Assembly: GCF_003752365.1 (NCBI RefSeq)
Contig: NZ_RJUO01000001.1
Coordinates: 62,001-126,000 of the forward strand
DNA from: Frondihabitans sp. PhB188
GTDB taxonomy: Bacteria > Actinomycetota > Actinomycetes > Actinomycetales > Microbacteriaceae
Direction of reading: 5' to 3'
Length of the DNA: 64,000 nt
Position 1 is the first letter of the stretch. Every line of letters starts with the position of its first letter. This document shows positions 43,242-58,278 of the stretch, piece after piece. Position numbers and translations under genes: made by a program. The notes beneath the pieces were generated by a model that worked only from the letters and a program-made list of their open reading frames with translations, was not told the origin of the DNA and did not search any database.

Positions 43242-43901
43242 ATGGACGCTTCATCTGTGATCGCCGTCATCGGCGACATCGTCAACTCCCGCGACATGGC
43301 CGACCGGGCCGGGGCTCAGCGCCTCATCGAGGCCGCCTTCGCCGAGTCGGGTGTCGAGGCCGCCGATCCGCTGCAGGCCACGGTCGGCGACGAGTTCCAG
43401 GTGGTCTACACGGCCCTCGGCGACGCGGTCGTCGCGACGACGGCGGCGATGCTCGGGCTCCCGGCGGGGCTCGAGCTGCGTTTCGGCCTCGGGGCCGGCC
43501 TCGTGCGTCCGATCGGAGAAGGCGGCAGGGGTCCGCTGCAGGACGGCCCGGGCTGGTGGTCGGCGCGCGACGCGATCAACGAGTCGCACCGGCGGGAGGA
43601 CGCGAAGAACCCGAGCCTGCGATCCTGGTTCGTGTCGTCCACCGATCCGGGCGGCCCGGAGGAGCGGCTCGTGAACTCGTACTTCCTCGCGCGCGACCAG
43701 ATCGTGTCGCGGATGAACGCCCGCGCCCGACGGGTCGCCCTCGGAGTGCTCCACGGCAGCACCCAGGCCGAGATCGCCCGCGTCGAAGGGGTCACGCAGT
43801 CGGCTGTGTCGCAGTCGCTGCAGTCGTCGGGAGCGATGGCGCTCGTCGACGGCCTGCGGCTGCTCGGCGGCGCGCGGGTCGCTCAGGAAGGGTCTGCCTG
43901 A
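43242..43901 (+). CDS. satD: SatD-family protein
   Basis: A 219-residue protein. The N-terminal ~160 residues match the SatD family (AVIGDIVNSRDMADRAGAQ; LQATVGDEFQVVYTALGDA). The core is reminiscent of a nucleotide-cyclase-like fold, and the GDEFQ motif may bind metal or nucleotide. The last ~55 residues are a helix-turn-helix (GVLHGSTQAEIARVEGVTQSAVSQSLQ). SatD is named after a streptococcal acid-tolerance locus; its biochemistry is unknown. Its stop overlaps the ATG of the membrane-protein gene (TGATG). Leaderless start behind TATGCT. Confidence 0.8.
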   Translation: MDASSVIAVIGDIVNSRDMADRAGAQRLIEAAFAESGVEAADPLQATVGDEFQVVYTALGDAVVATTAAMLGLPAGLELRFGLGAGLVRPIGEGGRGPLQDGPGWWSARDAINESHRREDAKNPSLRSWFVSSTDPGGPEERLVNSYFLARDQIVSRMNARARRVALGVLHGSTQAEIARVEGVTQSAVSQSLQSSGAMALVDGLRLLGGARVAQEGSA

Positions 43902-44737: not shown

Positions 44738-45315
44738 GGTCATCGGGCTCATGCCCGCCCAATCGGCACGTGCCCGCTGGGCGTTCGGCGGGGCCGAGCC
44801 GATCCGGCGGGGGTGAGCGGCGCGCGACGCCGGCCGGGCGGGCCTGGGCTGGGCTGCTCGTTGGGCTCGTGCCCGCTCAATCGGCACGTGCCCGCTGGGT
44901 GTTCGGCGGGGCTGGGCCGATCCGGCGGGGGCGAGCGACCCGCGACGCCGGCCGGGCGGGGCTGGGCTGGGCTGCTCGTCGGGCTCATGCCCGCCGAATT
45001 GGCACGTGCCCGCTGGGTGTTCGGCGGGGCCGGGCCGATCCGGCGGGGGTGAGCGGCGCGCGACGCCGGCCGGGCGGGGCCGGGCCGATCCGGCGGGGGT
45101 GAGCGGCGCGCGACGCTGGCCGGGCGGGGCCGAGCTGCTCGTCAGGCTCATGCCCGCCGAATCGGCACGTGCCCGCTGGGTGTTCGGCGGGGCCGGGCCG
45201 ATCCGGCGGGGGTGAGCGGCGCGCGACGCCGGCCGGGCGGGACTGGGCCGATCCGGCGGGGGTGAGCGGCGCGCGACGCCGGCCGGGCGGGGCCGGGCCG
45301 ATCCGGCGGGGCCGA
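44738..45315. repeat. composite GC-rich satellite (118/50-bp periods)
   Basis: Two modules alternate. Module A (~65 bp) contains GGCACGTGCC (a perfect palindrome) at 44765, 44883, 45001 and 45164. Module B (50 bp) contains GATCCGGCGGGG at 44801, 44919, 45037, 45087, 45200, 45250 and 45300. Spacings are 118, 118, 50, 113, 50 and 50, so the order is A-B-A-B-A-B-B-A-B-B-B. Frames on both strands stay open across it only because the units are stop-free. It is non-coding and lies directly upstream of the ligase-fusion gene. Confidence 0.9.
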
Positions 45316-45383: not shown

Positions 45384-47930
45384 ATGAGCGCAGAGCTGAC
45401 CCTGGGGGCAGAAGAAGAGCTCCACCTGATAGACCTCGAGACGAAGAGGCTCTCCGCGCGTGCGCCACAGCTGTTGTCGAAGCTGCCGCCCGACAAGTAC
45501 GGGGCGGAGCTCCAGCGCACCACCGTCGAGACCAACGTGCCGGTCGTCACGAACCTCACCGATCTGCGCCGCGAGATCCTCGCCCTGCGCAGAGACCTCG
45601 TCGAGGTCGCGACCGCGAACGATCTCGCGATCGCCGCGGCCGGTACCGCCCCGCGCTCCGAGTTCGCCGACTTCGAGCTCACCACGACGGGCCGCTACGG
45701 GCGCATGCAGGAGCAGTACCGCATGCTCGTCGACGAGCAGCTGATCTGCGGGCTTCAGGTGCACGTGGGGGTCTCGGACCGCGATCTCGCCGTGCAGATC
45801 ATGGGCCGCGTGGCCCCGTACCTCCCGGGCCTCCTGGCGCTCAGCGCGAGCTCCCCGTTCTGGAACGGGCAGGACACCGGCTACGCGAGCATCCGCTCGA
45901 TCATCTGGCAGCGCTGGCCGAGCGCCGGCGCGACGGGCCCGATGTCGGGCGCCGCCGAGTACGACCGCATGGTGCAAGACCTCATCGGCTCGGGCGTAAT
46001 CGCCGACGCCAAGATGGCGTACTTCGACATCCGGCCGTCGTCGCACGCGCCGACGCTCGAGCTCCGCACCTGCGACGCGTGCCCGATCGTCGACGATGCC
46101 GTCCTGATCGCGGGGCTCTTCCGGGCGGCCGTCCGCAAGGCCGAGATCGACATCCTCGACGGCCGGCCCGACCGCCAGCGCGCGGCGCCCCTGCACCGCG
46201 CCGCCATGTGGCAGGCGGCCCGCGCCGGCCTGACGGGCGAGCTGCTCGGGCTGGGCATCCACCCCGAGCGGCTCCCGGCGGCGCAGGCCGTGCGGTCGCT
46301 CGCCACCTCCCTCCGTCCGCAGCTGGAGGAGCTCGGCGACTGGCACGACGTCGAGGGGCTGATCGAGCAGACCCTGGCGCGCGGCAACTCGGCCGACCGC
46401 CAGCGCGCCGCATTCGCCGAGCACGGCAGCCTCGACGACGTCGTCGACCAGGTCGTGAAAGAGACGCACGGGCCCGCCGCCGGCGACCTGCCGACGACAC
46501 CGACTATCCGGGGCTACCGGTTCCGTGCCGGAGACGAGGCGATAGGGCCGGGACTCCGGGCCCGCCCGGCCTACGCCGACGTGGGCGGCTACTTCCGCAC
46601 GCTCGACGCCGAGGCGATCCGCGCGAAGAACGAGCGTCGCGACGAGTGGGCGCAGAAGAGGGGCCTGAGCTTCGTCGTCGACGACAAGCTCCGCGGCTTC
46701 GGGGTCGACCTCGTGCCGCGCATCGTCACGCACCACGAGTGGAAGCAGCTGGCCGCCGGGCTCGCACAGCGCGCCCGGGCGATCGAGGCGTTCCTCGAAG
46801 ACGCCTACGGATCCCGGCGCATCGTCGCCGACGGCGTCCTGAGCGAGGCCCAGGTCGTCGACGCGAGCGGCTGGCGCGTCGAGGCCTCCCTCTTGCCGAC
46901 GGGCACCGTCCGTGCGCCGGTCCAGGGCTTCGACCTGATCCGCAACGAGTTCGGCGGCTGGCGCGTGCTCGAAGACAACGTCCGCAGCCCGAGCGGCGCC
47001 GCCTACGCCGTGGCGGTCCGCCACCTCCTCGACGAGGTCGTGCCCGAGGCGCCCCGCCCGGCCGGACTCCTGAACCCCGAGACGGTCTTCGCCCTGCTGC
47101 GCGAGACGCTCCTCGCTCACAGCACGAACCCCGAGCCGGTGGGCGCCGTCCTGAGCAGCGGGCCCGGCAGCGGCGCCTGGTTCGAGCACCAGGCCCTGGC
47201 CGAGGGCGCCGGACTGCTCCTGGTCACCGCCGACGACCTCGCAGTCGACGGCCACCGCGTGCGGCACGCGGCAACGGGCGAGGTCATCGACGCGCTCTAC
47301 CTCCGCATGGACGGCGAGGTGCTGGAACTGGCAACCCCCGCCGACCCCGACCTCGGCGCGCGCATCATCGACGTCGCCGCCACCGGCGACGTCTTCCTCG
47401 CCAATGCCCCGGGCAACGGCCTCGCCGACGACAAGGCCATGTACGTCGCCGTGCCCGACCTGATCGAGTACTACCTCGACGAGAAGCCGAAGCTCGAGTC
47501 GGTGCCGACGTATCGGCTGAGCGACGAGGCCGAGAAGCTGAGCGTGCTCGACCGCGTCGGCGAGCTCGTCACGAAGCCGGTCGACGGCGAGGGCGGCCAC
47601 GGCGTGCTGATCGGCCCGAGCGCGAACGCGGCCGAGGTCGCGGCGCGCCGCGCGGAGATCGCCGCCGACCCGGCCCGCTGGGTGGCGCAGGAGGTCGTGA
47701 CGCTCTCGTCGCACCCGACCCTGACGGCGACCGGCCTCGAGCCGCGCCACGTCGACCTCCGCGCCTTCGTCTACCTGACCGGGGTCGGGCCGACGCAGGC
47801 GCGCCTGGCCGACTTCGCCCTGACCCGGGTGGCGCCCGAGGGCAGCATGGTCGTCAACTCGTCGCGGGGCGGCGGCGCGAAAGACACCTGGATCATCGGG
47901 CCGGACGCCGGCTCCGACGGGGAGGCCTGA
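45384..47930 (+). CDS. carboxylate-amine ligase fused to circularly permuted ATP-grasp
   Basis: An 848-residue fusion. Residues 1-~365 are a GCS2/YbdK-type carboxylate-amine ligase (TLGAEEELHLID; LQRTTVETNVP; CGLQVHVGVSD; ELRTCDACPIVDDAVL). It is the glutamate-cysteine-ligase-like fold that activates a gamma-carboxylate and joins it to an amine. Residues ~370-840 are a circularly permuted ATP-grasp (FIRNEFGGWRVLEDNVRSPSG-type region; KPVDGEGGHGVLIG; ALTRVAPEGSMVVNSSRGGGAKDTW). Two ATP-dependent amide-bond formers in one chain suggest a small peptide. The gene is followed after one base by an AsnO-type amidotransferase and then an S9 peptidase. ATG is 6 nt after TAGGTT: leaderless. Confidence 0.85.
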   Translation: MSAELTLGAEEELHLIDLETKRLSARAPQLLSKLPPDKYGAELQRTTVETNVPVVTNLTDLRREILALRRDLVEVATANDLAIAAAGTAPRSEFADFELTTTGRYGRMQEQYRMLVDEQLICGLQVHVGVSDRDLAVQIMGRVAPYLPGLLALSASSPFWNGQDTGYASIRSIIWQRWPSAGATGPMSGAAEYDRMVQDLIGSGVIADAKMAYFDIRPSSHAPTLELRTCDACPIVDDAVLIAGLFRAAVRKAEIDILDGRPDRQRAAPLHRAAMWQAARAGLTGELLGLGIHPERLPAAQAVRSLATSLRPQLEELGDWHDVEGLIEQTLARGNSADRQRAAFAEHGSLDDVVDQVVKETHGPAAGDLPTTPTIRGYRFRAGDEAIGPGLRARPAYADVGGYFRTLDAEAIRAKNERRDEWAQKRGLSFVVDDKLRGFGVDLVPRIVTHHEWKQLAAGLAQRARAIEAFLEDAYGSRRIVADGVLSEAQVVDASGWRVEASLLPTGTVRAPVQGFDLIRNEFGGWRVLEDNVRSPSGAAYAVAVRHLLDEVVPEAPRPAGLLNPETVFALLRETLLAHSTNPEPVGAVLSSGPGSGAWFEHQALAEGAGLLLVTADDLAVDGHRVRHAATGEVIDALYLRMDGEVLELATPADPDLGARIIDVAATGDVFLANAPGNGLADDKAMYVAVPDLIEYYLDEKPKLESVPTYRLSDEAEKLSVLDRVGELVTKPVDGEGGHGVLIGPSANAAEVAARRAEIAADPARWVAQEVVTLSSHPTLTATGLEPRHVDLRAFVYLTGVGPTQARLADFALTRVAPEGSMVVNSSRGGGAKDTWIIGPDAGSDGEA

Positions 47931-47931
47931 C

Positions 47932-49719
47932 GTGTGCGGGCTCGCGGGCGAGCTGCGGTTCGACGGGCGGCAGGCGGATCCTGCGACCCTCAGCCGGATG
48001 TCGGGCTGCCAGGTGCATCGCGGCCCCGACGGCGACGGCCTGTGGACGCGCGGACCGATCGGCCTCGCGCACCGCCGGCTCTCGATCATCGACCTCAGCC
48101 CTGCCGGCGCGCAGCCCATGGTCGATGCCGAGCTCGGGCTGACGATCGCCTACAACGGCATGATCTACAACTACGTCGAGCTCCGCGACGAGCTGCGCCG
48201 CAAGGGGCATCACTTCTTCTCGACCTCCGACACCGAGGTGATCCTCAAGGCCTACGCCGAGTGGGGCACGCGGTTCGCGAGCCACCTGCTCGGCATGTTC
48301 GCCATCGCGATCTGGGAGCACCGGTCGGGCCGGTTGATCCTGGTGCGCGACCGCCTCGGCATCAAGCCGCTCTACTACGACGCGACGCCCGAGCGGATCC
48401 GGTTCGCCTCGACCCTGCCGGCGCTCCTGGCGGGCGGCGGCACCGACACCTCGATCGACGTCGACGCGCTGGCCGAGTACCTCACGTTCCACTCGGTCGT
48501 GCCGGCGCCGCGCACCATCCTGAACGGCGTCAAGAAGCTGCCGCCGGCGACGATCCGCGTGGTCGAGCCCACCGGCGAGCACTCCGACACCCTCTACTGG
48601 GAGGCCGCGTTCGCTCGCGACGAGGCCGAGGCCGGCTGGAGCGACCAGGACTGGCAGGACGCCCTGATCGACTCGCTCCGCACCGCCGTCAAGCGCCGCA
48701 TGGTGTCGGATGTGCCGGTCGGAGTGCTGCTCTCGGGCGGTATCGACTCGAGCCTCGTCGTGGCGCTCCTGGCCGAGGCCGGGCAGACCGACCTCGCGAC
48801 GTTCAGCATCGGCTTCGAGTCGGCGGGCGGCGAGTCGGGCGACGAGTTCGAGTACTCGTCGATCGTGGCGAAGGAGTTCGGCACCGACCACCACCGCATC
48901 CCGATCCCCGGCGACCAGCTGCTGCCCGGCATCGACGGCGCCATCGCCGCGATGAGCGAGCCGATGGTGAGCCACGACTGCGTCGCCTTCTACCTGCTGA
49001 GCCAGGAGGTGTCGAAGAGCATCAAGGTGGTGCAGTCGGGCCAGGGTGCCGACGAGGTGCTCGGCGGCTACGACTGGTACCCGCCGCTGAACGGCGTGCC
49101 GCGCGCCCGTGCCGCCGAGGCGTACGCGTCGGTGTTCTTCGATCGGCGCTGGCGCGACATGCCGCGGATCCTGCGCCCGGAGTGGCTGGCCGAGACCGAC
49201 GTGCCCTCCCTGTTCGTCGACGAGCACTTCGCCCGGCCCGGCGCCGAGACCAGCGTCGACGCGGCGCTGCGCATCGACACGTCGATCATGCTGACCGACG
49301 ACCCGGTCAAGCGCGTCGACAACATGACGATGGCGTGGGGGCTCGAGGCGCGTGTCCCCTTCCTCGACCACGAGCTCGTTGAGCTGGCCGGGCGGATCCC
49401 GCCGCAGCTCAAGCTGCAGGACGGCGGCAAGGGGGTCCTGAAGCGGGCCGCCCGCGGCATCGTCCCCGACGCCGTGATCGACCGCACCAAGGGGTACTTC
49501 CCGGTTCCGGCGATCCGCCAGCTCGAGGGGCCCTACCTGCAGAAGGTGCGCGACGCCCTGCTCGATCCTGCCGCCCGCGAGCGAGGATTCTTCCACCCGG
49601 CTACCGTCGAGTCGATGCTCGCGAATCCCAACGACGCCCGGACCACCCTCGGCTCCAACGCCCTCTGGCAGCTCGCCACCCTCGAGATGTGGCTGCAGGC
49701 CCAGGGGGTGACCTCGTGA
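47932..49719 (+). CDS. asnO: AsnB/AsnO-type amidotransferase (N-acetylglutaminylglutamine amidotransferase-like)
   Basis: A 595-residue glutamine-dependent amidotransferase. Cys2 is the N-terminal nucleophile of the class II glutaminase domain (MCGLAGELRFDGRQAD..HRGPDGDGLW). The synthetase domain has the PP-loop SGGIDSS (268-274) that adenylates a carboxylate. The segments RFASTLPALLAGGGTDTSIDVDAL, YLTFHSVVPAPRTIL and LPPATIRVVEP agree closely with N-acetylglutaminylglutamine amidotransferases of the NAGGN osmolyte pathway rather than with asparagine synthetase. It should convert a C-terminal carboxylate of a small peptide to an amide. GTG start one base after the ligase stop; its own stop overlaps the peptidase start (GTGA). 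Confidence 0.85.
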   Translation: MCGLAGELRFDGRQADPATLSRMSGCQVHRGPDGDGLWTRGPIGLAHRRLSIIDLSPAGAQPMVDAELGLTIAYNGMIYNYVELRDELRRKGHHFFSTSDTEVILKAYAEWGTRFASHLLGMFAIAIWEHRSGRLILVRDRLGIKPLYYDATPERIRFASTLPALLAGGGTDTSIDVDALAEYLTFHSVVPAPRTILNGVKKLPPATIRVVEPTGEHSDTLYWEAAFARDEAEAGWSDQDWQDALIDSLRTAVKRRMVSDVPVGVLLSGGIDSSLVVALLAEAGQTDLATFSIGFESAGGESGDEFEYSSIVAKEFGTDHHRIPIPGDQLLPGIDGAIAAMSEPMVSHDCVAFYLLSQEVSKSIKVVQSGQGADEVLGGYDWYPPLNGVPRARAAEAYASVFFDRRWRDMPRILRPEWLAETDVPSLFVDEHFARPGAETSVDAALRIDTSIMLTDDPVKRVDNMTMAWGLEARVPFLDHELVELAGRIPPQLKLQDGGKGVLKRAARGIVPDAVIDRTKGYFPVPAIRQLEGPYLQKVRDALLDPAARERGFFHPATVESMLANPNDARTTLGSNALWQLATLEMWLQAQGVTS

Positions 49720-51557
49720 CCACCTCGACCACCGTCGCCGATCCGTTCGTCGACCAGCTCGTGGGCGCGTGGGGCTCCTGGGGCCCGACCATGACCCGGA
49801 ACGCCCGTCGCGTCGCCTTCGTCAGCGACCGCTTCGGCTCTCCCGAGGTGTTCGTCCAGGACGTCATCAGCGCAGGAACTCTCCCGACCCCGCACCGCAT
49901 CACCCTGAGCGACGACCCCGTCATCGCCGTCTCATGGTCGGCCGACAGCGCCTGGCTCGCCGTCGCCGTGGCCACCGACGGCGGTGTGCGCCAGCAGGTC
50001 TGGGTCGTGCGGCCGGACGGCTCCGACGCGCAGCGCATCGCCGGATCGCGCGACCAGCACGCCGAGCTCGGACCGTGGTCGCGCAGCGGCCACCGGGTCG
50101 TCGTCACGCTGCCCTCGACCGAGCCGGAGCAGCCGGCTCGCGCCTACCTCGTCGACCCCGAGTCGGGCGCCCGTGACGACCTGGCCACCGGCGAGCTGAT
50201 CCACATCCTCGACGTGTCGGTCGAGGAGCGTCTCGTGATCCTGCGCGACGGCGGCCGCGGCCACGAGTTCGTCGTCGTGGTCGACCGCCTCACCGACGAC
50301 GACCACCCGCTGCTCGTCGAGCCGTGGGCGGGGTCGGCCGAGACGGCGCTGATCCGGCCCTCGCCCGAGTCGGAGTCGAGCCCGCTCATCGCCTACCTGG
50401 CCACCGAGGCCGGGCTGCCTCGGCGTCAGCTCGTCGCGATGCCGCTCGGCCCGCACGGCTGGCGCGGCGAGTCGCACGTTCTCGCCGGCCGCGACGACGC
50501 GGAGCTCGAAGAGCTCGACGCCGACGACGCCGGGCGGGTGCTGCTGCTGGTCTGGAACGCCGCCGGACGCAGCGAGATCGACCTGCTCGACACCGCCTCC
50601 GGCCAGCGCACCCGGGTCGACGGCCTCCCCGGCCAGGTCGTCACCAACCCGGTCATCTCGCGCGACGGCCGCAGCGTGCTCCTCACGGTCGAGGGGCCGC
50701 TCCGCCCGCGCGCGCTCTGGCGCCTGGACACCTCGACGCACGCCTGGTCGCCGGTCACCGACGGGCCCGAGCTGCCCGAGGGCCTCGTCGAGCCGACGCT
50801 CGAGACCCTCACGGCGCGCGACGGGCTGACGCTGACCGGGTGGCTGTACCGCGCGGCGTCAGGCGACGGCCCGCCCGCCGCGATGATCCACCTGCACGGC
50901 GGCCCCGAGTCGCAGGAGCGCCCCGCCTTCTCGCCCCAGCACCAGGCGCTCGTCGCCGCCGGCATCACCGTCTTCGCGCCGAACATCCGGGGATCCTCCG
51001 GCTTCGGCTCGGAGTTCGTCCACGCCGACGACCTCGCCCTCCGCTGGAACGCGCACGCCGACATCGTCGACTGCCGCGACTGGCTTCTGGCGCAGGAACT
51101 CGCCGTCGCCTCCACCGTCGCCGTCGAAGGGCGCTCCTACGGCGGCTACGCCACGCTCGCGTCGCTCGCCTTCACGCCCGACGTCTTCGCCGCCGGCGTG
51201 GCCGTCTGCGGCATGAGCGACCTGCACACGTTCTACCGCGACACCGAGCCGTGGATCGCGGCGGCCGCCACGACCAAGTACGGGCACCCGGTCGACGACG
51301 CGGAGCTGCTCGCCGAGCTGTCGCCGCTCGGCCGGGCCGACGACATCGTCGCACCGCTGCTGGTCGTGCACGGCGAGCTCGACACCAACGTGCCGGTGGG
51401 GGAGTCGCACCAGATCGTCGCGGCCCTGCGCGAGCGCGGCGCCGACGTGGAGTACCTCGAGCTGGCCGGGGAGGGGCACGAGTACCGCAGGGCCGACTCG
51501 AAGCGAGAGCTCGTTCGGACGATGGTCGAGTTCCTGCGCCAGAAGCTTCTGGGCTGA
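49716..51557 (+). CDS. S9-family (prolyl oligopeptidase-like) peptidase
   Basis: A 613-residue serine peptidase. Residues ~25-365 form a beta-propeller (SDDPVIAVSWSADSAWLAVAV; NPVISRDGRSVLLTVEG). Residues ~380-613 form the alpha/beta-hydrolase domain with the triad Ser474 (GRSYGGY), Asp556 (HGELDTNVP) and His588 (GEGHEY). No signal peptide, so it is cytosolic. It is translationally coupled to the amidotransferase gene (GTGA), so it probably hydrolyses the peptide amide made by the locus. NAGGN loci in proteobacteria carry an M42-type peptidase in this position. Confidence 0.88.
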   Translation: MTTSTTVADPFVDQLVGAWGSWGPTMTRNARRVAFVSDRFGSPEVFVQDVISAGTLPTPHRITLSDDPVIAVSWSADSAWLAVAVATDGGVRQQVWVVRPDGSDAQRIAGSRDQHAELGPWSRSGHRVVVTLPSTEPEQPARAYLVDPESGARDDLATGELIHILDVSVEERLVILRDGGRGHEFVVVVDRLTDDDHPLLVEPWAGSAETALIRPSPESESSPLIAYLATEAGLPRRQLVAMPLGPHGWRGESHVLAGRDDAELEELDADDAGRVLLLVWNAAGRSEIDLLDTASGQRTRVDGLPGQVVTNPVISRDGRSVLLTVEGPLRPRALWRLDTSTHAWSPVTDGPELPEGLVEPTLETLTARDGLTLTGWLYRAASGDGPPAAMIHLHGGPESQERPAFSPQHQALVAAGITVFAPNIRGSSGFGSEFVHADDLALRWNAHADIVDCRDWLLAQELAVASTVAVEGRSYGGYATLASLAFTPDVFAAGVAVCGMSDLHTFYRDTEPWIAAAATTKYGHPVDDAELLAELSPLGRADDIVAPLLVVHGELDTNVPVGESHQIVAALRERGADVEYLELAGEGHEYRRADSKRELVRTMVEFLRQKLLG

Positions 51558-51587: not shown

Positions 51588-52571
51588 CTAGACGAGGGTG
51601 AGCGGCCCCGTCGGAGTCGGGTCGATGGCCGGAGCCGCGGGCCCGGTCGGGATGCGCCTCGAGGCGTCGCCCCTGGCCGAGCGGACGAAGGCGATGCCGG
51701 CCAGGATCAGGACGCCGCCGAGCAGCTGCGGCACCGTCAGGTCTTCGCCGAGCAGCACCCAGGCGTACAGGGTCGCCGCGACGACCTCGAGCAGGCCGGC
51801 GAACGACGCGAGGCGCGCCCCGAGCATCTCGCTGGCCGTGATGTTGGCCGTGTAGGCGATAGCGGTGGCGACGAGCCCGACGATCAGGACGGGCACCCAC
51901 CAGTCGACGGTCGATCCCAGCACGGTGACGGGCGCGAAGCTCGCCGTGAACGGCAGCGCGCCGACGAGGCCGAGGGCGCCGAGCACGAGTCCGCCGATCA
52001 GGAGGCCTCCGGCGGCGAGGGCGACGGAGGGCAGCCCGTCGGCCGGAGCCGCCGCCACCACGTAGTAGATCGCGCAGCCGACCATGGCCAGCACGCCGAA
52101 GAACAGGCCGAGAGCGTCGAGGTGCACGCCCGAGGCCGGTGCGACGACGAGCACGAGGCCCGCCACGGCGACGACGCTGCCCACGATCACCACGGTCTCG
52201 GGGCGGCGCCGCGTGCGGACCCACACCAGCCCGACGAGCAGAAGCGGAGCCATGTACTCCAGCAGGATCGCGGTGCCGACCGGAACCCGCTCGATTGCCG
52301 CGAAGTACGCCAGCTGGCACCCCGCCACGCCGATGACCGCCATGGCAAGCACGCGCCAGCGGCCGCGCCACAGCGCGCTCCAGCGGCCGCGGAGGCTGAT
52401 CGCGGCGACGGGTGCGAGCACGATCCCGCCGACCAGGGCGCGCACGGTGACCGCCGCCGCCGGGCTCCAGCCGGCCTCGAGCATCGGCTTCACGAACGCG
52501 CCCGACATGCCGAAGGTGAACGCGGCGACGACGGCGATGACGAGGCCGGTGGTGGTGGACGAGCGGGGCAT
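51588..52571 (-). CDS. EamA-family (DMT) transporter
   Basis: A 327-residue membrane protein with ten predicted helices and two EamA repeats (AFTFGMSGAFVKPMLEAGWSP; AVGLAVIVAPASG-type repeat; LEVVAATLYAWVLLGEDLTVPQLLGG). It is of the RhtA/YdcZ-like type that exports amino acids or metabolites. Its C-terminal ~25 residues are Pro-rich and cytosolic. It is divergent from a CGNR regulator, the common arrangement for this transporter. Confidence 0.85.
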   Translation of the reverse strand: MPRSSTTTGLVIAVVAAFTFGMSGAFVKPMLEAGWSPAAAVTVRALVGGIVLAPVAAISLRGRWSALWRGRWRVLAMAVIGVAGCQLAYFAAIERVPVGTAILLEYMAPLLLVGLVWVRTRRRPETVVIVGSVVAVAGLVLVVAPASGVHLDALGLFFGVLAMVGCAIYYVVAAAPADGLPSVALAAGGLLIGGLVLGALGLVGALPFTASFAPVTVLGSTVDWWVPVLIVGLVATAIAYTANITASEMLGARLASFAGLLEVVAATLYAWVLLGEDLTVPQLLGGVLILAGIAFVRSARGDASRRIPTGPAAPAIDPTPTGPLTLV

Positions 52572-52667
52572 GGGCGGTCCTTGATCGAGGCGTGTGCGCG
52601 AGTCGGAGATGAGAGGTTGTCGTGCTTCTGATCGAGACGTTAGTGTGGCTCTGAGTAAGGAGTCAAC

Positions 52668-53231
52668 TTGCATTTTGCCCCTGACACCGACGAGGCCCTC
52701 GAGTTCGTCGTGGCCCTGTCGAACACGGTGCCCACGGCGTCGAGATCGGGCGTCGACGAGATCGCGACGCCGTCCGAGCTGACGGCGCTGCTCGATGCGT
52801 TCGGGTACTCCGGGCGGTTCGATCGCGACGAGGCCGAGCTCGTCGCCGTGCTCGACGCGCGCGACCGCCTGCGCGGGGTCTTTGTGATGGACCGCGATGC
52901 CGCCGTCGCCGAGGTCAACCTCATGCTGCGCGAGGTCGGCGCCCTGCCGCAGCTCGTCCGGCACGACGCTCTGGACTGGCACCTGCACGCGACCGACCTC
53001 ACGGCGCCGCTCGCCGACCGCATCCGCGTCGAGGCCGCGCTCGCGCTCGTCGACGTGCTCCGCAGCGACGAGATGGGGCGCCTGCGCACCTGCGAGGCCT
53101 TCGACTGCGACGGCGTGCTGGTCGACCTCTCGCGCAACGGGTCGAAGCGGTTCTGCAGCGTGCGGTGCGGCAACCGGATGAACATGGTGGCGTTCCGGGC
53201 GCGGGCCGCCGCCGGCGACCTCACCTCATGA
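52668..53231 (+). CDS. ABATE/CGNR zinc-finger regulator
   Basis: A 187-residue regulator. The N-terminal ABATE domain (residues ~1-140) presumably senses a metabolite. The C-terminal CGNR zinc finger has Cys143 and Cys148 (RTCEAFDCDGVLVD) and Cys160/Cys164 with FCSVRCGNRMN. TTG start, AAGGAG five bases upstream. It is divergent from the EamA exporter and likely controls it. Confidence 0.85.
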   Translation: MHFAPDTDEALEFVVALSNTVPTASRSGVDEIATPSELTALLDAFGYSGRFDRDEAELVAVLDARDRLRGVFVMDRDAAVAEVNLMLREVGALPQLVRHDALDWHLHATDLTAPLADRIRVEAALALVDVLRSDEMGRLRTCEAFDCDGVLVDLSRNGSKRFCSVRCGNRMNMVAFRARAAAGDLTS

Positions 53232-53711: not shown

Positions 53712-54326
53712 TCAGCGGGCCCGACGGTGCATCGCAAGCAGCTCGCCGGATCGCTGCGCCAGCGCGGCCTGGCCGCGGCGGGCAGGCATCCCCAGACGCG
53801 TGAGCGGGATCCGGCCGCCGATCGCGAGGGCCTCGTCGCGCGGGAACAGCACCACGGCACCCTGTCCGAACCGGTCGCGCAGAACCTCGGCGGTTCGGCC
53901 GATGCGCGAGCGCCCCGCGGCCCCGTTGGCGACGACGACGAGGCGCGAGGTCCCGGCGGCGCCGAACCGGTCGGCCGCGGTCGAGAGCAGCCGCTCGGCG
54001 AGCGACAGGCCGGCGGGCGACGCGGCTGTCACGGCGACCAGGAGGTCGTGGGGCGCCTCGAGGGCGTCGATTCCTCCGGTGAACGCGTGCGGCCCGATGT
54101 CGTGCAGCGCGAGCGAGTCGTCGAGCTGCGCGACGTCGTCGCCGTTGGTCAGCCGGGCGCCCAGGTCGCCGCCGGAGTGGTCGTAGAGCACCGGCGCACC
54201 CTCGAGCGAGTGCCGGAGGCTCTCGAAGACGAGCGCGGCCAGCGTGGTCGTGCCGGTGCCGCCGGCGGTCCCGGCGAGCACGACCCGGACCCCGCGGGTC
54301 TCGCGGCGCCGCTCGAAGTCAGACAT
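53712..54326 (-). CDS. type VII locus MinD-like protein with degenerate P-loop
   Basis: A 204-residue MinD/ParA-fold protein. The deviant Walker A region reads AGGTGTTT where active ParA/MinD proteins have KGGxGKT: both signature lysines are gone (Ala and Thr). Later strands (LLVAVTAASPAGLSLAERLL; SRLVVVANGAAG) keep the fold. Without the lysines it may bind nucleotide weakly or act only as a scaffold. The start overlaps the end of eccC by 8 bp, so it is the last gene of the minus-strand secretion operon. Confidence 0.75.
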   Translation of the reverse strand: MSDFERRRETRGVRVVLAGTAGGTGTTTLAALVFESLRHSLEGAPVLYDHSGGDLGARLTNGDDVAQLDDSLALHDIGPHAFTGGIDALEAPHDLLVAVTAASPAGLSLAERLLSTAADRFGAAGTSRLVVVANGAAGRSRIGRTAEVLRDRFGQGAVVLFPRDEALAIGGRIPLTRLGMPARRGQAALAQRSGELLAMHRRAR

Positions 54327-57300
54327 CGGCAGCCCCGTCGGCGGACACGACCCCGGCCCCGAAGTGCGCCACCTGCGCCACGAACGGCCGCTCGCCGCGC
54401 CGCACGAGGCGGCCGCGCCCGGCGACCATCTGCTCGGCATACAGCCGCGGCAGGATCTGCCCCTCGGCGCGCTCGCCCGACATGAGGAAGGTGGAGCCGC
54501 CGGTGTCGCGGATCGACTGGAGCGACGTGTCGAAGAGGGCGCGCTGGAGGCCGGCGACCGGCCTCGCGAGGAGGACGTTGAGGCGCAGGTCGCGCGCCGA
54601 CGGGAGGTACGGGAGGAGGGGCCGCAGCGGCTCGGTGCCGCCCGAGGCGAGGATGTCGAAGTCGTCGGCGACCACGACGATGCGGGGTCCTTTCGATCGG
54701 TCGGGTGACGCGCCACGGCTGTCGAGTTCCTGCGCGATCGCGGTCGTCAGCTGGCGGGCCTCGAGCGCGGACGACGCGTAGCCGCCGAGGTAGTCGTCGG
54801 GGGTGACGTCGGCGAGGGTGCCGCGGGCGTCCATCACGGCTATCACGAGCTCGTCGGCCGTGTAGCGCTCGACGAGCCCCTCGATCAGGCCGCGCAGCAG
54901 GGTCGTCTTGCCCGAGCCGCCGTCTCCGAAGACGGTGAGGTGCTGGTCGGTGTGCTGCAGGTCGAGGACGGCGGGCTGCATGGTGTCCTGGCGGAGGCCG
55001 AACGGGATCCGGTCGGGCTCGTCGAAGACGTCGGGCAGCTCGGAGGGCGTGTAGTCGGTCGGCAGCAGGCGGATCGGGGCCGCGGCGGGGCCGTTCCAGC
55101 TGGCGCTCGCGCGAGCGGCGAGCTGCGCCATCGCCTCGGGCACGCCGTCGTCGTCGACGTCGTCGAGCACCGGCAGGGCGATCTGCGCGAAGCGGCGCTC
55201 CTCCGTGATCATGCGGCCCTTCTGCGACGGCTGGATCGTCTGCGCGAGCTTGCGGTCGATGACCGAGTCGGCTGCGTCGTTGAGGCGGAGCTCGAGGCGG
55301 GTGCCGATCAGGGGCTGGAGGTTCATCCGCACCTCGTTCCAGCGGGTGAGCGACAGGACGACGTGGATGCCGAAGCTCGACCCGCGCTGGAGCAGCTCGG
55401 CGAGCGGCTGGTCGAAGCGCTCGAACTCGTCGCGCACGGCGCCGTAGCCGTCGACCAGCAGGATCACGTCGGCGGACGGCAGCTCGGGCAGTCCTCCTGC
55501 GGCGTGCCGGGCACGGAGCGCCGGCAGCGAGTCGATGCCGTTCTCGCGGAACACCCGCTCGCGCTGCGTGAGCATCAGGTGCAGCTCTTCGAGGAGGCGC
55601 AGCACGCGGTCGGGGTCGGAGCGCGTGGCGACGCCGCCGACGTGCGGGAACCCCTCGATGCGCGCCAGGCCGCCGCCCGAGAGGTCGAGGCCGTAGACCG
55701 CCACCTGGCGGGGCGTCGTCGTGAGCGCCGTGGCGGCGGCGACCGACCGCAGCAGCGTCGAGCGGCCGGTCTGCGGGGCGCCGATGACGGCCGCGTGGCC
55801 GCCGGAGCGGGTGAGGTCGAGCACCCACGAGCCCTGCGACTGGCTGGCCGGGTCGTCGACGAGGCCGAGCGGGATCCGGAGGGCCTCGTCGAGCTCGCGT
55901 CGCCCCTGGACCACGCGCGACAGGGCGAGCCGGTCCGGGAGCGGCGGGAGCCAGACCGGGCTGACCGTGCGTCCGGCGACACGGAGCCGGTCGACGGCCT
56001 CGTCGACGAGGGCGCGGCCGACGGATGGTCGCTCGAGCTCGGCCTCCGGCTCGTCGCCGGTCGCGTCGGCCGAGGCCAGCGTGTTGTAGGCGGGCAGGAC
56101 CAGCGGCTCGGGCCGGGCGGCGGGGTCCGAGGCCGGGCTGGTCGACTGCTCGATCGGCCCCGAGACGTAGCCGGCGCGGAACCGCCGGTAGATCGACGTG
56201 TCGACCTTGAGGTAGCCGTAGCCGGGGATCGCGGGCAGGTGGAAGGCGTCGGGCCGGTCGAGGATCGTCGTCGACTCCGCCTCCGAGAAGGTGCGGAGGC
56301 CGATCCGGTACGACAGGTAGGTGTCGAGGCCGCGCAGCTTGCCGGCCTCGATCCGCTGGCTCGACAGCAGCAGGTGCACGCCGATCGAGCGCCCGATGCG
56401 GCCGATGGTCATCAGCAGGTCAATGAACTCGGGCTCGGCCGTCAGCAGCTCGCCGAACTCGTCGATGACCAGCAGCAGGTGCGGCAGCGGCGGGAGCTCG
56501 GGGCGCTGCTCGCGCAGCTCGCGGTAGTGCGTGATCGAGGGCGAGCTGTCGGCGTCGCGCAGCACCTTCTGGCGGCGCACCACCTCGCCGGCGATCGACG
56601 CCCGGGCGCGCTCGGTGAGGCCCGCGTCGTCGGCGAGATTGTCGATGATCCCGGCGACGTGGGGCAGGCCGGCGAAGGCCGCGAATGCTGCGCCGCCCTT
56701 GTAGTCGACGAGCACCATGCTCAGGTCTTCGGGGGAGTGCGACAGGCCCAGGCCGAGCACCAGCGTGCGGAGCATCTCGCTCTTGCCTGATCCGGTCGCA
56801 CCGATGCAGATGCCGTGTGGTCCCATGCCGAGCTGTGCCGACTCCTTCAGGTCGAGCAGCACGGGCGCGCCGAAGTCGTCCAGGCCGATCGGCACGCGCA
56901 GGAAGTCGCGGGGCGACCGGGGCGTCCAGGCGTTCTCCGGGGCCACGCGGGTCACGTCGGCGATGCCGAGCAGGTCGGTGACGCTGATCCCCTCGACCGA
57001 CTCCGCTTCGTCCTGAGCGGTGAGGCTGAGCCGCAGCGGGGCCAGCTCGCGGGCGAGCGTCTGGAACGTCGAGGGGGCCACGCTGTCGAGCCGCACGGTC
57101 GAGGTCGTGACCTCGCCATTCGCCTCCACCCGGGCGTCGGTCACCACGGCCTCGTCGCCGTCGACGGTCACCCGGACCGTGACGTTCGACGGCTCGTGCA
57201 GGCGGTCGCTCAGCAGGTGCACCGCCGTCACCTGCAGGTCGGCGAGGTCGAGGTCGGCGTCGGGCACCGGCAGGCCGCTGGCGACGTGGCCGTAGTCGTC

Positions 57301-58278
57301 GACGAACACGACAAGGCGCGAGCCGAGCGCGGTTCCCGACGTGCCCGCGCTGCGCTTCGCCGTCGCGGCGAGCTGCGCCCGGTCGGCGAGCTCACCTCCG
57401 ATCACGCGGAGCAGAGCCGTCGTGTCGGTGGCGATCCTGCGCGCAGGAACGGGCCCATCCCTCAGCGCGTCATCGACGGCGTGCGGCAGGAGGTCGAAGC
57501 CGTCCCACTCGGCCGCCGCGTCGGCGGGGTAGGCGGCGGCCAGATGCAGGTCGTCGGGCGAGTGCAGCGCGGCCAGCTGGCTGATCAGGGCCCGGGCGGC
57601 GCGCACGACGCCGTCGCGGTCGCCGATGATCGCCACGTGGCCCGCGTGGTCGAGGTCGAGGGTCACCGGCATCCCGGCGACCATCGAGTAGTGCCGCGCG
57701 ACGGTCTCCGCCTCGGCCAGCATGATCGGGTCGAACGGCTGCACGGGGTTCTGGTCGCGGGGCAGGGTGAGGTCGAACCAGCGGACGTCGCCGGTGCCGA
57801 GGCGGACGTCGAGGAAGTCCGCGTCGCTGCGGCGCCGCTCCCACAGTCGCGCGGGGTCGCGCACCAGCTCGGTGAGCGCCGCGGGCTCCGGGTTGAGGGT
57901 CGCCGCCTTGGCGCGCACCTCGCGGCCCCGGCGGCGCATCGTGCCGCGGGTGCGCTCCAGGAAGTCGAGGTACCTCTCGCGCTGCGTCCGGCGGGTGCGG
58001 GCGGCGTTGCCGCGCTGCGACACGGCCATCCCGAGTCCGCCGACGAGTGCCACGACCAGCACCAGTGCTCCGACGACCATGAACACGGGGTTCGCGTTCC
58101 GGAGCACGACGATCATGATGATCGACGAGAACGAGCCGACCACGGGGAGCAGCGTCTGCAGGGGGATGCCGCCGACCGGGCCCTCGGTGAGGGCCGGCGG
58201 GGGAGCGAGCGGCTCCTCCTCGTCGGGGCGAAGCGGCCGGCTGACGCGGGTCGGACGGTGCACGAGGCGGCGGGTCAT
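54319..58278 (-). CDS. eccC: type VII secretion ATPase EccC (FtsK/SpoIIIE type)
   Basis: A 1319-residue coupling ATPase of the inner-membrane secretion complex. Two transmembrane helices (~40-60 and 65-88) and a charged stalk precede three FtsK/SpoIIIE ATPase domains. D1 has Walker A GATGSGKS near 492 and Walker B LLVIDEFGELL near 600. D2 has GAPQTGRS near 832 with Arg in place of Lys. D3 has a canonical GDGGSGKT near 1116 and VVVADDFDIL. The single-chain form (EccCa and EccCb joined) is usual outside mycobacterial ESX-1. It recognises substrate C-termini and drives export. The gene lies between the two MinD-like genes. Confidence 0.92.
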   Translation of the reverse strand: MTRRLVHRPTRVSRPLRPDEEEPLAPPPALTEGPVGGIPLQTLLPVVGSFSSIIMIVVLRNANPVFMVVGALVLVVALVGGLGMAVSQRGNAARTRRTQRERYLDFLERTRGTMRRRGREVRAKAATLNPEPAALTELVRDPARLWERRRSDADFLDVRLGTGDVRWFDLTLPRDQNPVQPFDPIMLAEAETVARHYSMVAGMPVTLDLDHAGHVAIIGDRDGVVRAARALISQLAALHSPDDLHLAAAYPADAAAEWDGFDLLPHAVDDALRDGPVPARRIATDTTALLRVIGGELADRAQLAATAKRSAGTSGTALGSRLVVFVDDYGHVASGLPVPDADLDLADLQVTAVHLLSDRLHEPSNVTVRVTVDGDEAVVTDARVEANGEVTTSTVRLDSVAPSTFQTLARELAPLRLSLTAQDEAESVEGISVTDLLGIADVTRVAPENAWTPRSPRDFLRVPIGLDDFGAPVLLDLKESAQLGMGPHGICIGATGSGKSEMLRTLVLGLGLSHSPEDLSMVLVDYKGGAAFAAFAGLPHVAGIIDNLADDAGLTERARASIAGEVVRRQKVLRDADSSPSITHYRELREQRPELPPLPHLLLVIDEFGELLTAEPEFIDLLMTIGRIGRSIGVHLLLSSQRIEAGKLRGLDTYLSYRIGLRTFSEAESTTILDRPDAFHLPAIPGYGYLKVDTSIYRRFRAGYVSGPIEQSTSPASDPAARPEPLVLPAYNTLASADATGDEPEAELERPSVGRALVDEAVDRLRVAGRTVSPVWLPPLPDRLALSRVVQGRRELDEALRIPLGLVDDPASQSQGSWVLDLTRSGGHAAVIGAPQTGRSTLLRSVAAATALTTTPRQVAVYGLDLSGGGLARIEGFPHVGGVATRSDPDRVLRLLEELHLMLTQRERVFRENGIDSLPALRARHAAGGLPELPSADVILLVDGYGAVRDEFERFDQPLAELLQRGSSFGIHVVLSLTRWNEVRMNLQPLIGTRLELRLNDAADSVIDRKLAQTIQPSQKGRMITEERRFAQIALPVLDDVDDDGVPEAMAQLAARASASWNGPAAAPIRLLPTDYTPSELPDVFDEPDRIPFGLRQDTMQPAVLDLQHTDQHLTVFGDGGSGKTTLLRGLIEGLVERYTADELVIAVMDARGTLADVTPDDYLGGYASSALEARQLTTAIAQELDSRGASPDRSKGPRIVVVADDFDILASGGTEPLRPLLPYLPSARDLRLNVLLARPVAGLQRALFDTSLQSIRDTGGSTFLMSGERAEGQILPRLYAEQMVAGRGRLVRRGERPFVAQVAHFGAGVVSADGAADV

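Follow-up and report, generated by a model that had tools for sequence, protein, structure and literature searches.

A conserved actinobacterial variant of the NAGGN pathway in which synthetase and peptidase are both replaced

In Frondihabitans sp. PhB188 (Microbacteriaceae; genome size, 3.79 Mb), an AsnO-type class II glutamine amidotransferase is encoded in a three-gene operon, next to genes coding for a fusion of a GCS2 domain with a circularly permuted ATP-grasp domain and for a serine peptidase of family S9. The operon is located within a 64,000-nucleotide stretch of contig NZ_RJUO01000001.1 (positions 62,001 to 126,000; assembly GCF_003752365.1), here referred to as the window. It represents a real and conserved variant of the pathway for N-acetylglutaminylglutamine amide (NAGGN) in which both the synthetase and the peptidase are replaced. 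We consider it somewhat more probable than its alternatives taken together (roughly 55%) that this NAGGN-pathway derivative makes a gamma-glutamyl peptide amide. The direction of the exchange, the substrates, the product and a part in osmoprotection we infer, and it is the kinship of AsnO that suggests a role as an osmolyte.

The three genes are closely packed (Table 1). AsnO starts with GTG-TGC (Met and Cys2, the latter presumably being the class II amidotransferase nucleophile) 1 nucleotide past the stop codon of the fusion gene, and the GTG start codon of the S9 gene at 49716 overlaps the AsnO stop codon as GTGA. The tight enclosure of AsnO by its two neighbors, which had been pointed out in an initial annotation made from the DNA by itself, was borne out for all three genes. 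A scan of the region for sigma-70 promoters and terminators returned no promoter-like and one terminator-like site, no more than in shuffled sequences.

Table 1. Features of the window, with positions counted from its first nucleotide
Feature	Position	Strand	Length or match
Fusion gene (GCS2 + circularly permuted ATP-grasp), proposed Ngg replacement	45384..47930	+	848 aa
GCS2 (YbdK/glutamate-cysteine ligase) half, residues 7-283	45402..46232	+	PF04107, 170.9 bits
Circularly permuted ATP-grasp half, residues 445-817	46716..47834	+	CP_ATPgrasp_2 (PF14403), 342.7 bits
AsnO-type class II glutamine amidotransferase	47932..49719	+	TIGR03104, 927.6 bits (cut-off, 570.1)
AsnO Arg570 codon, separating partner types	49639..49641	+	aligned AsnO rows
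S9 serine peptidase (prolyl oligopeptidase/acylaminoacyl-peptidase type)	49716..51557	+	PF00326, 152.1 bits
SatD-family gene, upstream of the operon	43242..43901		
Tandem repeats immediately before the operon (periods, 118, 163 and 50 bases; 91-98% matches)	44743..45311		
EamA transporter gene, downstream	51588..52988	-	
CGNR zinc finger/ABATE putative stress-induced regulator gene, downstream	52668..53231	+	
FtsK/SpoIIIE-family protein, three matched stretches	54319..58278	-	1319 aa

AsnO matched the NAGGN equivalog model TIGR03104 from end to end and far above its cut-off, and stayed below the cut-off of NF006949, an asparagine synthetase-type model (281.7 bits versus 499). In the known asnO-ngg-M42 system of Pseudomonas aeruginosa (PA3459-PA3461) and Sinorhizobium meliloti, the products of PA3459-PA3461 make NAGGN, for which an osmotic role is described (PMC8070244; this and the other papers given by PMC number are cited from excerpts). 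The operon shares with that system the AsnO equivalog, a synthetase with a cap-making domain at its N terminus and a ligase domain at its C terminus, and a peptidase within the operon. In contrast, it lacks the GNAT/RimK-type synthetase Ngg, in place of which GCS2 and circularly permuted ATP-grasp are found, its peptidase is of type S9 and not M42, and its gene order is synthetase-AsnO-peptidase. The best match to the Ngg model TIGR03103 in the whole genome reached 32.1 bits (cut-off, 569), so that no hidden Ngg above cut-off was found elsewhere; a true actinobacterial Ngg (L064) scored 873 bits as a positive control. The M42 model TIGR03106 gave no match to the operon peptidase in a search that was confined to the operon, the rest of the genome not being searched, while controls yielded 499.9 (L064) and 568.9 bits (L210) at a cut-off of 397.75. 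The earlier claim of a NAGGN-type amidotransferase with another synthetase and another peptidase therefore held. The operon resembles NAGGN biosynthesis in its proposed sequence of making, amidating and recycling a peptide, but since it fails two defining features of NAGGN loci, it should be classified separately from NAGGN.

Pfam matches on the fusion protein comprised GCS2 (PF04107) and CP_ATPgrasp_2 (PF14403) and no GNAT or other acetyltransferase family, in agreement with the initial annotation. The closest named fusions were those of Frondihabitans sp. Leaf304 (86%, best segment) and F. sucicola (85%). In the AlphaFold2 model (mean pLDDT, 89.1; pTM, 0.86), the predicted fold pair is that of glutamate-cysteine ligase and glutathione synthetase. 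Domain, YbdK subfamily model and fold all placed the GCS2 half in the YbdK/GCS2 group, and it also scored above the cut-off of NF010041, a model named glutamate-cysteine ligase. For structural comparison, 37 AsnO and 47 fusion sequences were chosen and aligned, the window included; both halves of the fusion retained their conserved motifs throughout the 47 aligned sequences. The GCS2 half is a putative gamma-glutamyl ligase, and enzyme families resembling the fusion form gamma-glutamyl and C-terminal extension bonds. The overall layout, a glutamate-cysteine ligase fold followed by an ATP-grasp ligase in a single chain, recalls the GshA-GshB fusion GshF (3ln6/3ln7); however, the operon fusion is made of other families (YbdK-type GCS2 and circularly permuted ATP-grasp, the latter to our knowledge absent from GshF), and neither of the GshF models TIGR01435 and NF002688 was among its 11 NCBIfam matches. 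From the YbdK carboxylate-amine ligase (1r8g), the GCS2 half differs in being fused to a second ligase and in residing in an amidotransferase operon. The circularly permuted ATP-grasp family has a solved structure (3n6x) but is not known to have an assigned substrate.

The closest solved structure to the S9 peptidase was 5l8s, designated 'Amino acyl peptidase' (142.5 bits). Acylamino-acid-releasing enzymes (1ve6/2qzp) followed at ∼71 bits, with further matches, from ∼71 bits downward, to prolyl oligopeptidases and to S9 enzymes of other kinds. Ser, Asp and His motifs, whose roles are putative, were located in the peptidase. As acylamino-acid-releasing enzymes act on N-blocked peptides, we propose from this kinship that the operon peptidase may do so as well.

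To see how AsnO is accompanied elsewhere, 396 Actinomycetota genomes were surveyed with TIGR03104 (at most three candidates scored per genome) and for the full-length fusion (at most two), so that counts are lower bounds. AsnO above cut-off was present in at least 46 genomes, and 43 of these loci were read, the window included (G135, G385 and G350 being left out). Ngg was the partner in 30 of the 43. The fusion accompanied AsnO in 4 (window, L088, L090 and L100), a stand-alone GCS2 in another 4 (L081, L084, L085 and L087), and a circularly permuted ATP-grasp together with a DUF1028 protein in 3 (type D: L074, L076 and L080). One locus each contained a GCS2 of another lineage (L093) and S9 only (L082). 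Two of the three type D loci had a separate divergent GCS2 gene, and several frames of L076 were broken. In all three, AsnO was followed by the DUF1028 protein in lieu of a peptidase, which hints at a peptidase-like function of DUF1028. The full-length fusion was detected in at least 5 genomes (G000, G314, G092, G392 and G323), with G323 being devoid of AsnO above cut-off. Four genomes with GCS2-AsnO-S9 operons (G199, G134, G029 and G252) were called Streptomyces-type after the operon on plasmid p1 of S. fungicidicus, which is annotated as glutamate-cysteine ligase, NAGGN amidotransferase and alpha-beta fold hydrolase. They share the S9 peptidase with the operon studied here, and their AsnO and GCS2 fall into neighboring tree groups, but they lack the ATP-grasp half, which had no match at 1e-20 in any of the four genomes. 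GCS2 alone thus seems able to supply AsnO there.

Partner combinations were then compared over 117 labelled AsnO rows, made up of the loci of the AsnO survey, loci found via the fusion and 7 plasmid records, again including the window. The rows were obtained by tblastn-guided reading; 18 loci were without AsnO, and L101 and L147 were omitted because their genomes are already represented by L098 and L095. Ngg never occurred together with GCS2/ATP-grasp (0 of 117 loci), although absences at some loci with short flanks are not proofs. Earlier Ngg matches in L134 and L144 were artefacts that vanished once the L056-derived probe was trimmed of an overlapping AsnO frame. The peptidase switched along with the synthetase: M42 was found in 14/35 Ngg loci versus 0/82 other AsnO loci, and S9 in 0/35 versus 73/82 (counting L168, with a match of 40 residues only). 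This joint change of peptidase type and cap-making enzyme is the strongest indication of a peptide other than NAGGN. One plasmid of Polaromonas naphthalenivorans (L213) carried a divergent AsnO beside genes for transaldolase, phosphoglucomutase and phosphoketolase; no partner was recognized in the stretch.

A scan of GTDB contigs provided the fusion loci, for which the best 80 of 460 confirmed ones were used. They were mostly from Microbacteriaceae (Curtobacterium, Frigoribacterium, Subtercola, Herbiconiux, Rathayibacter, Naasia and Amnibacterium), with further hosts in Blastococcus, Geodermatophilus, Kineococcus, Quadrisphaera, Microlunatus, Mumia, Cellulomonas, Nakamurella and Actinoplanes. 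AsnO was found directly downstream of the fusion in 61/80 loci, 58 of which also had an S9 match, and the gap between the aligned stretches had a median of 25 nucleotides (≤60 nucleotides in 50/61). At L122 the contig end cuts inside AsnO, which brings the number to 62/80, and at L163 the stretch left no room for AsnO. The order of fusion and AsnO is not due to chance, and the three-gene order, for which the initial annotation had suggested a survey, is conserved among actinobacteria. Within the genus of the window, fusion and AsnO above cut-off were present in 6 of 7 genomes and both missing from the seventh (G005). In F. sucicola (G006; L098/L101), AsnO and S9 were each spread over at least two frames while the fusion frame was open, reflecting either recent decay or sequencing errors, and in G004 the S9 gene was split over two frames (L097, 11889-12560). 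Among Geodermatophilaceae, L129, L139 and L168 showed fusion and AsnO without an intact S9, and L144 of the same family has S9. The 40-residue S9 match after AsnO in L168 is probably a remnant, with a DUF1028 match on the opposite strand.

This recurrent pairing bears on whether fusion and AsnO could be unrelated neighbors, with AsnO serving the cell as asparagine synthetase and the fusion acting as an ordinary glutamate-cysteine ligase. AsnO is indeed the single Asn_synthase (PF00733) match reported in the genome and passes the asparagine synthetase-type model TIGR01536 (437.6 bits; cut-off, 267.1), but TIGR03104 fits far better, the pair is kept in 62/80 fusion loci, and the peptidase co-varies. 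Moreover, three genomes of the genus set have GatB above cut-off and no AsnRS (asparaginyl-tRNA synthetase) above cut-off. Asparagine is formed in a tRNA-dependent manner with GatB where AsnRS is missing, and protein asparagine should accordingly be made on tRNA in these three. One of them, G005, has neither AsnO above cut-off nor the fusion, and AsnO seems not to be needed for protein asparagine. On these grounds an ordinary asparagine synthetase was not adopted as the principal interpretation, and we regard a chance neighborhood as highly improbable.

Trees were calculated as quick LG+G4 trees with midpoint rooting and support by the Shimodaira-Hasegawa-like approximate likelihood ratio test (SH-aLRT) only, with no bootstrap. 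The AsnO tree contained 115 rows (L098, with a frameshifted AsnO, and L122, cut by a contig end, were left out); those of the ATP-grasp and GCS2 domains contained 24 chosen loci out of the 80, 5 more fusion loci, the window and 20 other sequences each. AsnO rows with GCS2-type partners and the two S9-only rows formed one group of 76 (SH-aLRT, 96), which sits among Ngg-type rows on the midpoint root, and type D AsnO formed a separate group (100). The GCS2 halves of the fusions and the stand-alone GCS2 of Streptomyces-type operons formed a common group (98), apart from other sampled GCS2 genes. Likewise, the ATP-grasp halves of the fusions were one group (95) apart from type D, the GCS2 and ATP-grasp of which were drawn from other branches. 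This pattern suggests that one replacement of Ngg led to both the GCS2 and the fusion operons. Type D would represent at least one further pairing of GCS2 and ATP-grasp with AsnO; its independence is likely but unproven, given quick trees with no bootstrap and long GCS2 branches.

Across all partner types, 167 AsnO positions of the window were ≥97% conserved (weighted), and 13 positions distinguished fusion-partnered rows from those partnered with Ngg at the 75% level. The sharpest of these was position 570, which was Arg in 67/67 fusion-partnered, 6/6 GCS2- and S9-partnered and 2/2 S9-only rows (75 of the 76 rows of the GCS2-partner group), versus Leu or Ile in 35/35 Ngg-partnered rows, including those nearest on the tree (L083, L089, L181 and L182). 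In the Polaromonas AsnO it was Phe. A basic residue in place of an aliphatic one would be in keeping with a charged cap being recognized, and the otherwise conserved AsnO suggests that the amidated end is still glutamine.

On the basis of these observations we propose the following pathway. Ngg, with its N-terminal GNAT cap-maker and C-terminal ATP-grasp, would have been replaced by GCS2 and circularly permuted ATP-grasp with the domain order kept, and the M42 peptidase by S9. GCS2 would attach an amino acid, probably Gln, to the gamma-carboxyl group of Glu, and the resulting gamma-glutamyl cap, being zwitterionic, would need no acetyl group. The ATP-grasp half, which is built like eukaryotic glutathione synthetase, would add one C-terminal residue, AsnO would convert the terminal carboxylate into an amide with Gln as nitrogen donor, and S9 would cleave the N-blocked peptide once the cell has no further need of it. 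Examples of such a product would be gamma-Glu-Gln-Gln-NH2 for the operon in the window and gamma-Glu-Gln-NH2 for Streptomyces-type operons. As motifs are kept in both halves and the fusion resembles glutamate-cysteine ligase and glutathione synthetase, a tripeptide amide formed by two ligations is more probable than a dipeptide. Thus, of the product proposed initially, the gamma-glutamyl type and its amidation and recycling by the same operon remain probable, whereas the dipeptide is less so; a dipeptide amide fits the Streptomyces-type operons without ATP-grasp.

Could the operon nevertheless make NAGGN, with the fusion and an acetyltransferase encoded elsewhere providing N-acetyl-Gln-Gln by another route and AsnO acting as in Sinorhizobium? 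The high conservation of AsnO, with so few separating positions, would be in line with this, but the bonds formed by fusion-like families, the missing GNAT family in the fusion, the co-varying peptidase and the change at position 570 all speak against it, and we judge it unlikely. In favor of NAGGN, Frankia papers assign AsnO loci with very divergent or unspecified synthetases to it: in one, AsnO is >60% identical to others, the putative Ngg is <15% identical, and a dipeptidase gene lies between them (PMC5563000); in another, a glutamine amidotransferase upregulated under polyethylene glycol is assigned to NAGGN (PMC5768760). The former locus may represent a replacement like that in the operon, classified there under NAGGN. 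In Micromonospora, NAGGN clusters were counted as core (PMC11537254, PMC12915310), and the osmolyte ABAGG of this genus is chemically unrelated (PMC10513789). Glutamate-cysteine ligase and NAGGN are named in separate contexts in the excerpt of PMC10979467. In the parts of the open-licence literature covered by our search, no description of GCS2/circularly permuted ATP-grasp beside AsnO was found. Similar neighborhoods may already have been noted in work on amidoligases (Iyer, 2009), and we therefore claim no priority.

The kinship of the fusion also raises the question of a thiol resembling glutathione amide, in which case the fusion would form gamma-Glu-Cys-X and AsnO would amidate it, as in purple sulfur bacteria. 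The match to NF010041 and the predicted fold pair are consistent with this, and glutathione amide, with an amidated glycine, has been described in Marichromatium, and its presence in other purple bacteria is inferred (PMC8877833); in Allochromatium vinosum it was not detected (PMC4213376). Like glutathione amide, our predicted product would be a gamma-glutamyl tripeptide with an amidated C terminus, but glutathione amide is a thiol. However, AsnO is the NAGGN equivalog, the acceptor of which ends in Gln (PMC8070244), and the mycothiol ligase MshC was above cut-off in the genome, so that a main thiol is probably already there. In addition, six neighboring frames that were scanned gave SatD, EamA, CGNR/ABATE, FtsK/SpoIIIE or nothing, none of them thiol-related. 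A thiol product thus appears quite improbable. The FtsK/SpoIIIE protein, judged by eye, we take to be like the type VII secretion ATPase EccC.

Several findings weigh against the proposed pathway. Of 17 genomes in which the fusion lacks a neighboring AsnO and which were searched whole, 15 contained no AsnO above cut-off, and there the product of the fusion can be used without amidation or for another purpose; AsnO is common but dispensable beside the fusion, and amidation within one operon, as first proposed, would apply to many loci without AsnO being a fixed part. Two genomes (G416 and G417) combined a fusion-S9 pair without AsnO with an AsnO beside Ngg elsewhere (L159, L166, L181 and L182), the AsnO-Ngg pair of G416 (Quadrisphaera) being located ∼12 kb from the fusion. 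Conversely, L082 and L212 showed AsnO-S9 with no recognized ligase in the stretch read, and the GCS2 of G167 falls within the Streptomyces-operon group, yet its genome has no AsnO above cut-off. Another ligase elsewhere may help in the GCS2-only genomes, and the substrate specificity of GCS2 is not readable from its sequence. At position 570, type D AsnO had Lys, Lys and Ser and L093 had Thr, so a basic residue is not universal; with the 75 Arg570 rows in one group, Arg570 may be a single change. Finally, the trees are quick ones with SH-aLRT support, and that of GCS2 contains long branches.

The loci without AsnO would also be compatible with a scenario in which the fusion has its own product and AsnO is a later addition amidating it for stress tolerance or storage, not for osmoprotection. 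Besides the 15 genomes above, three fusion loci with S9 and no adjacent AsnO (L159, L166 and L177) point in this direction. Judged by eye, however, AsnO and the fusion halves group alike (Actinoplanes and family f39, for instance, being separate from the others), as would be expected if an old association had been followed by losses, and AsnO is kept in most fusion loci. We consider a late addition of AsnO rather unlikely. All six Frigoribacterium loci (L102-L106 and L161) had the fusion without AsnO or S9 in the stretch, and their genomes were without AsnO above cut-off. L166 (G417), titled Streptomyces sp. NP160, grouped with Quadrisphaera.

If the proposed gamma-glutamyl peptide amide is right, an unrecognized family of small amidated peptides would exist in many actinobacteria (Microbacteriaceae, Geodermatophilaceae, Kineosporiaceae and Actinoplanes, with a shorter version in Streptomyces). 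It is possible, albeit doubtful, that these form a new class of solutes, gamma-glutamyl peptide amides with a zwitterionic cap in place of N-acetyl, made by synthetases of GCS2 and circularly permuted ATP-grasp whose assembly took place on more than one occasion among actinobacteria. NAGGN called from AsnO alone could then misname the product, as TIGR03104 carries the NAGGN name (seen in the S. fungicidicus record). The circularly permuted ATP-grasp family would gain a function to test, and the operons would exemplify an amidotransferase that is kept while the enzymes making and breaking its substrate change together.

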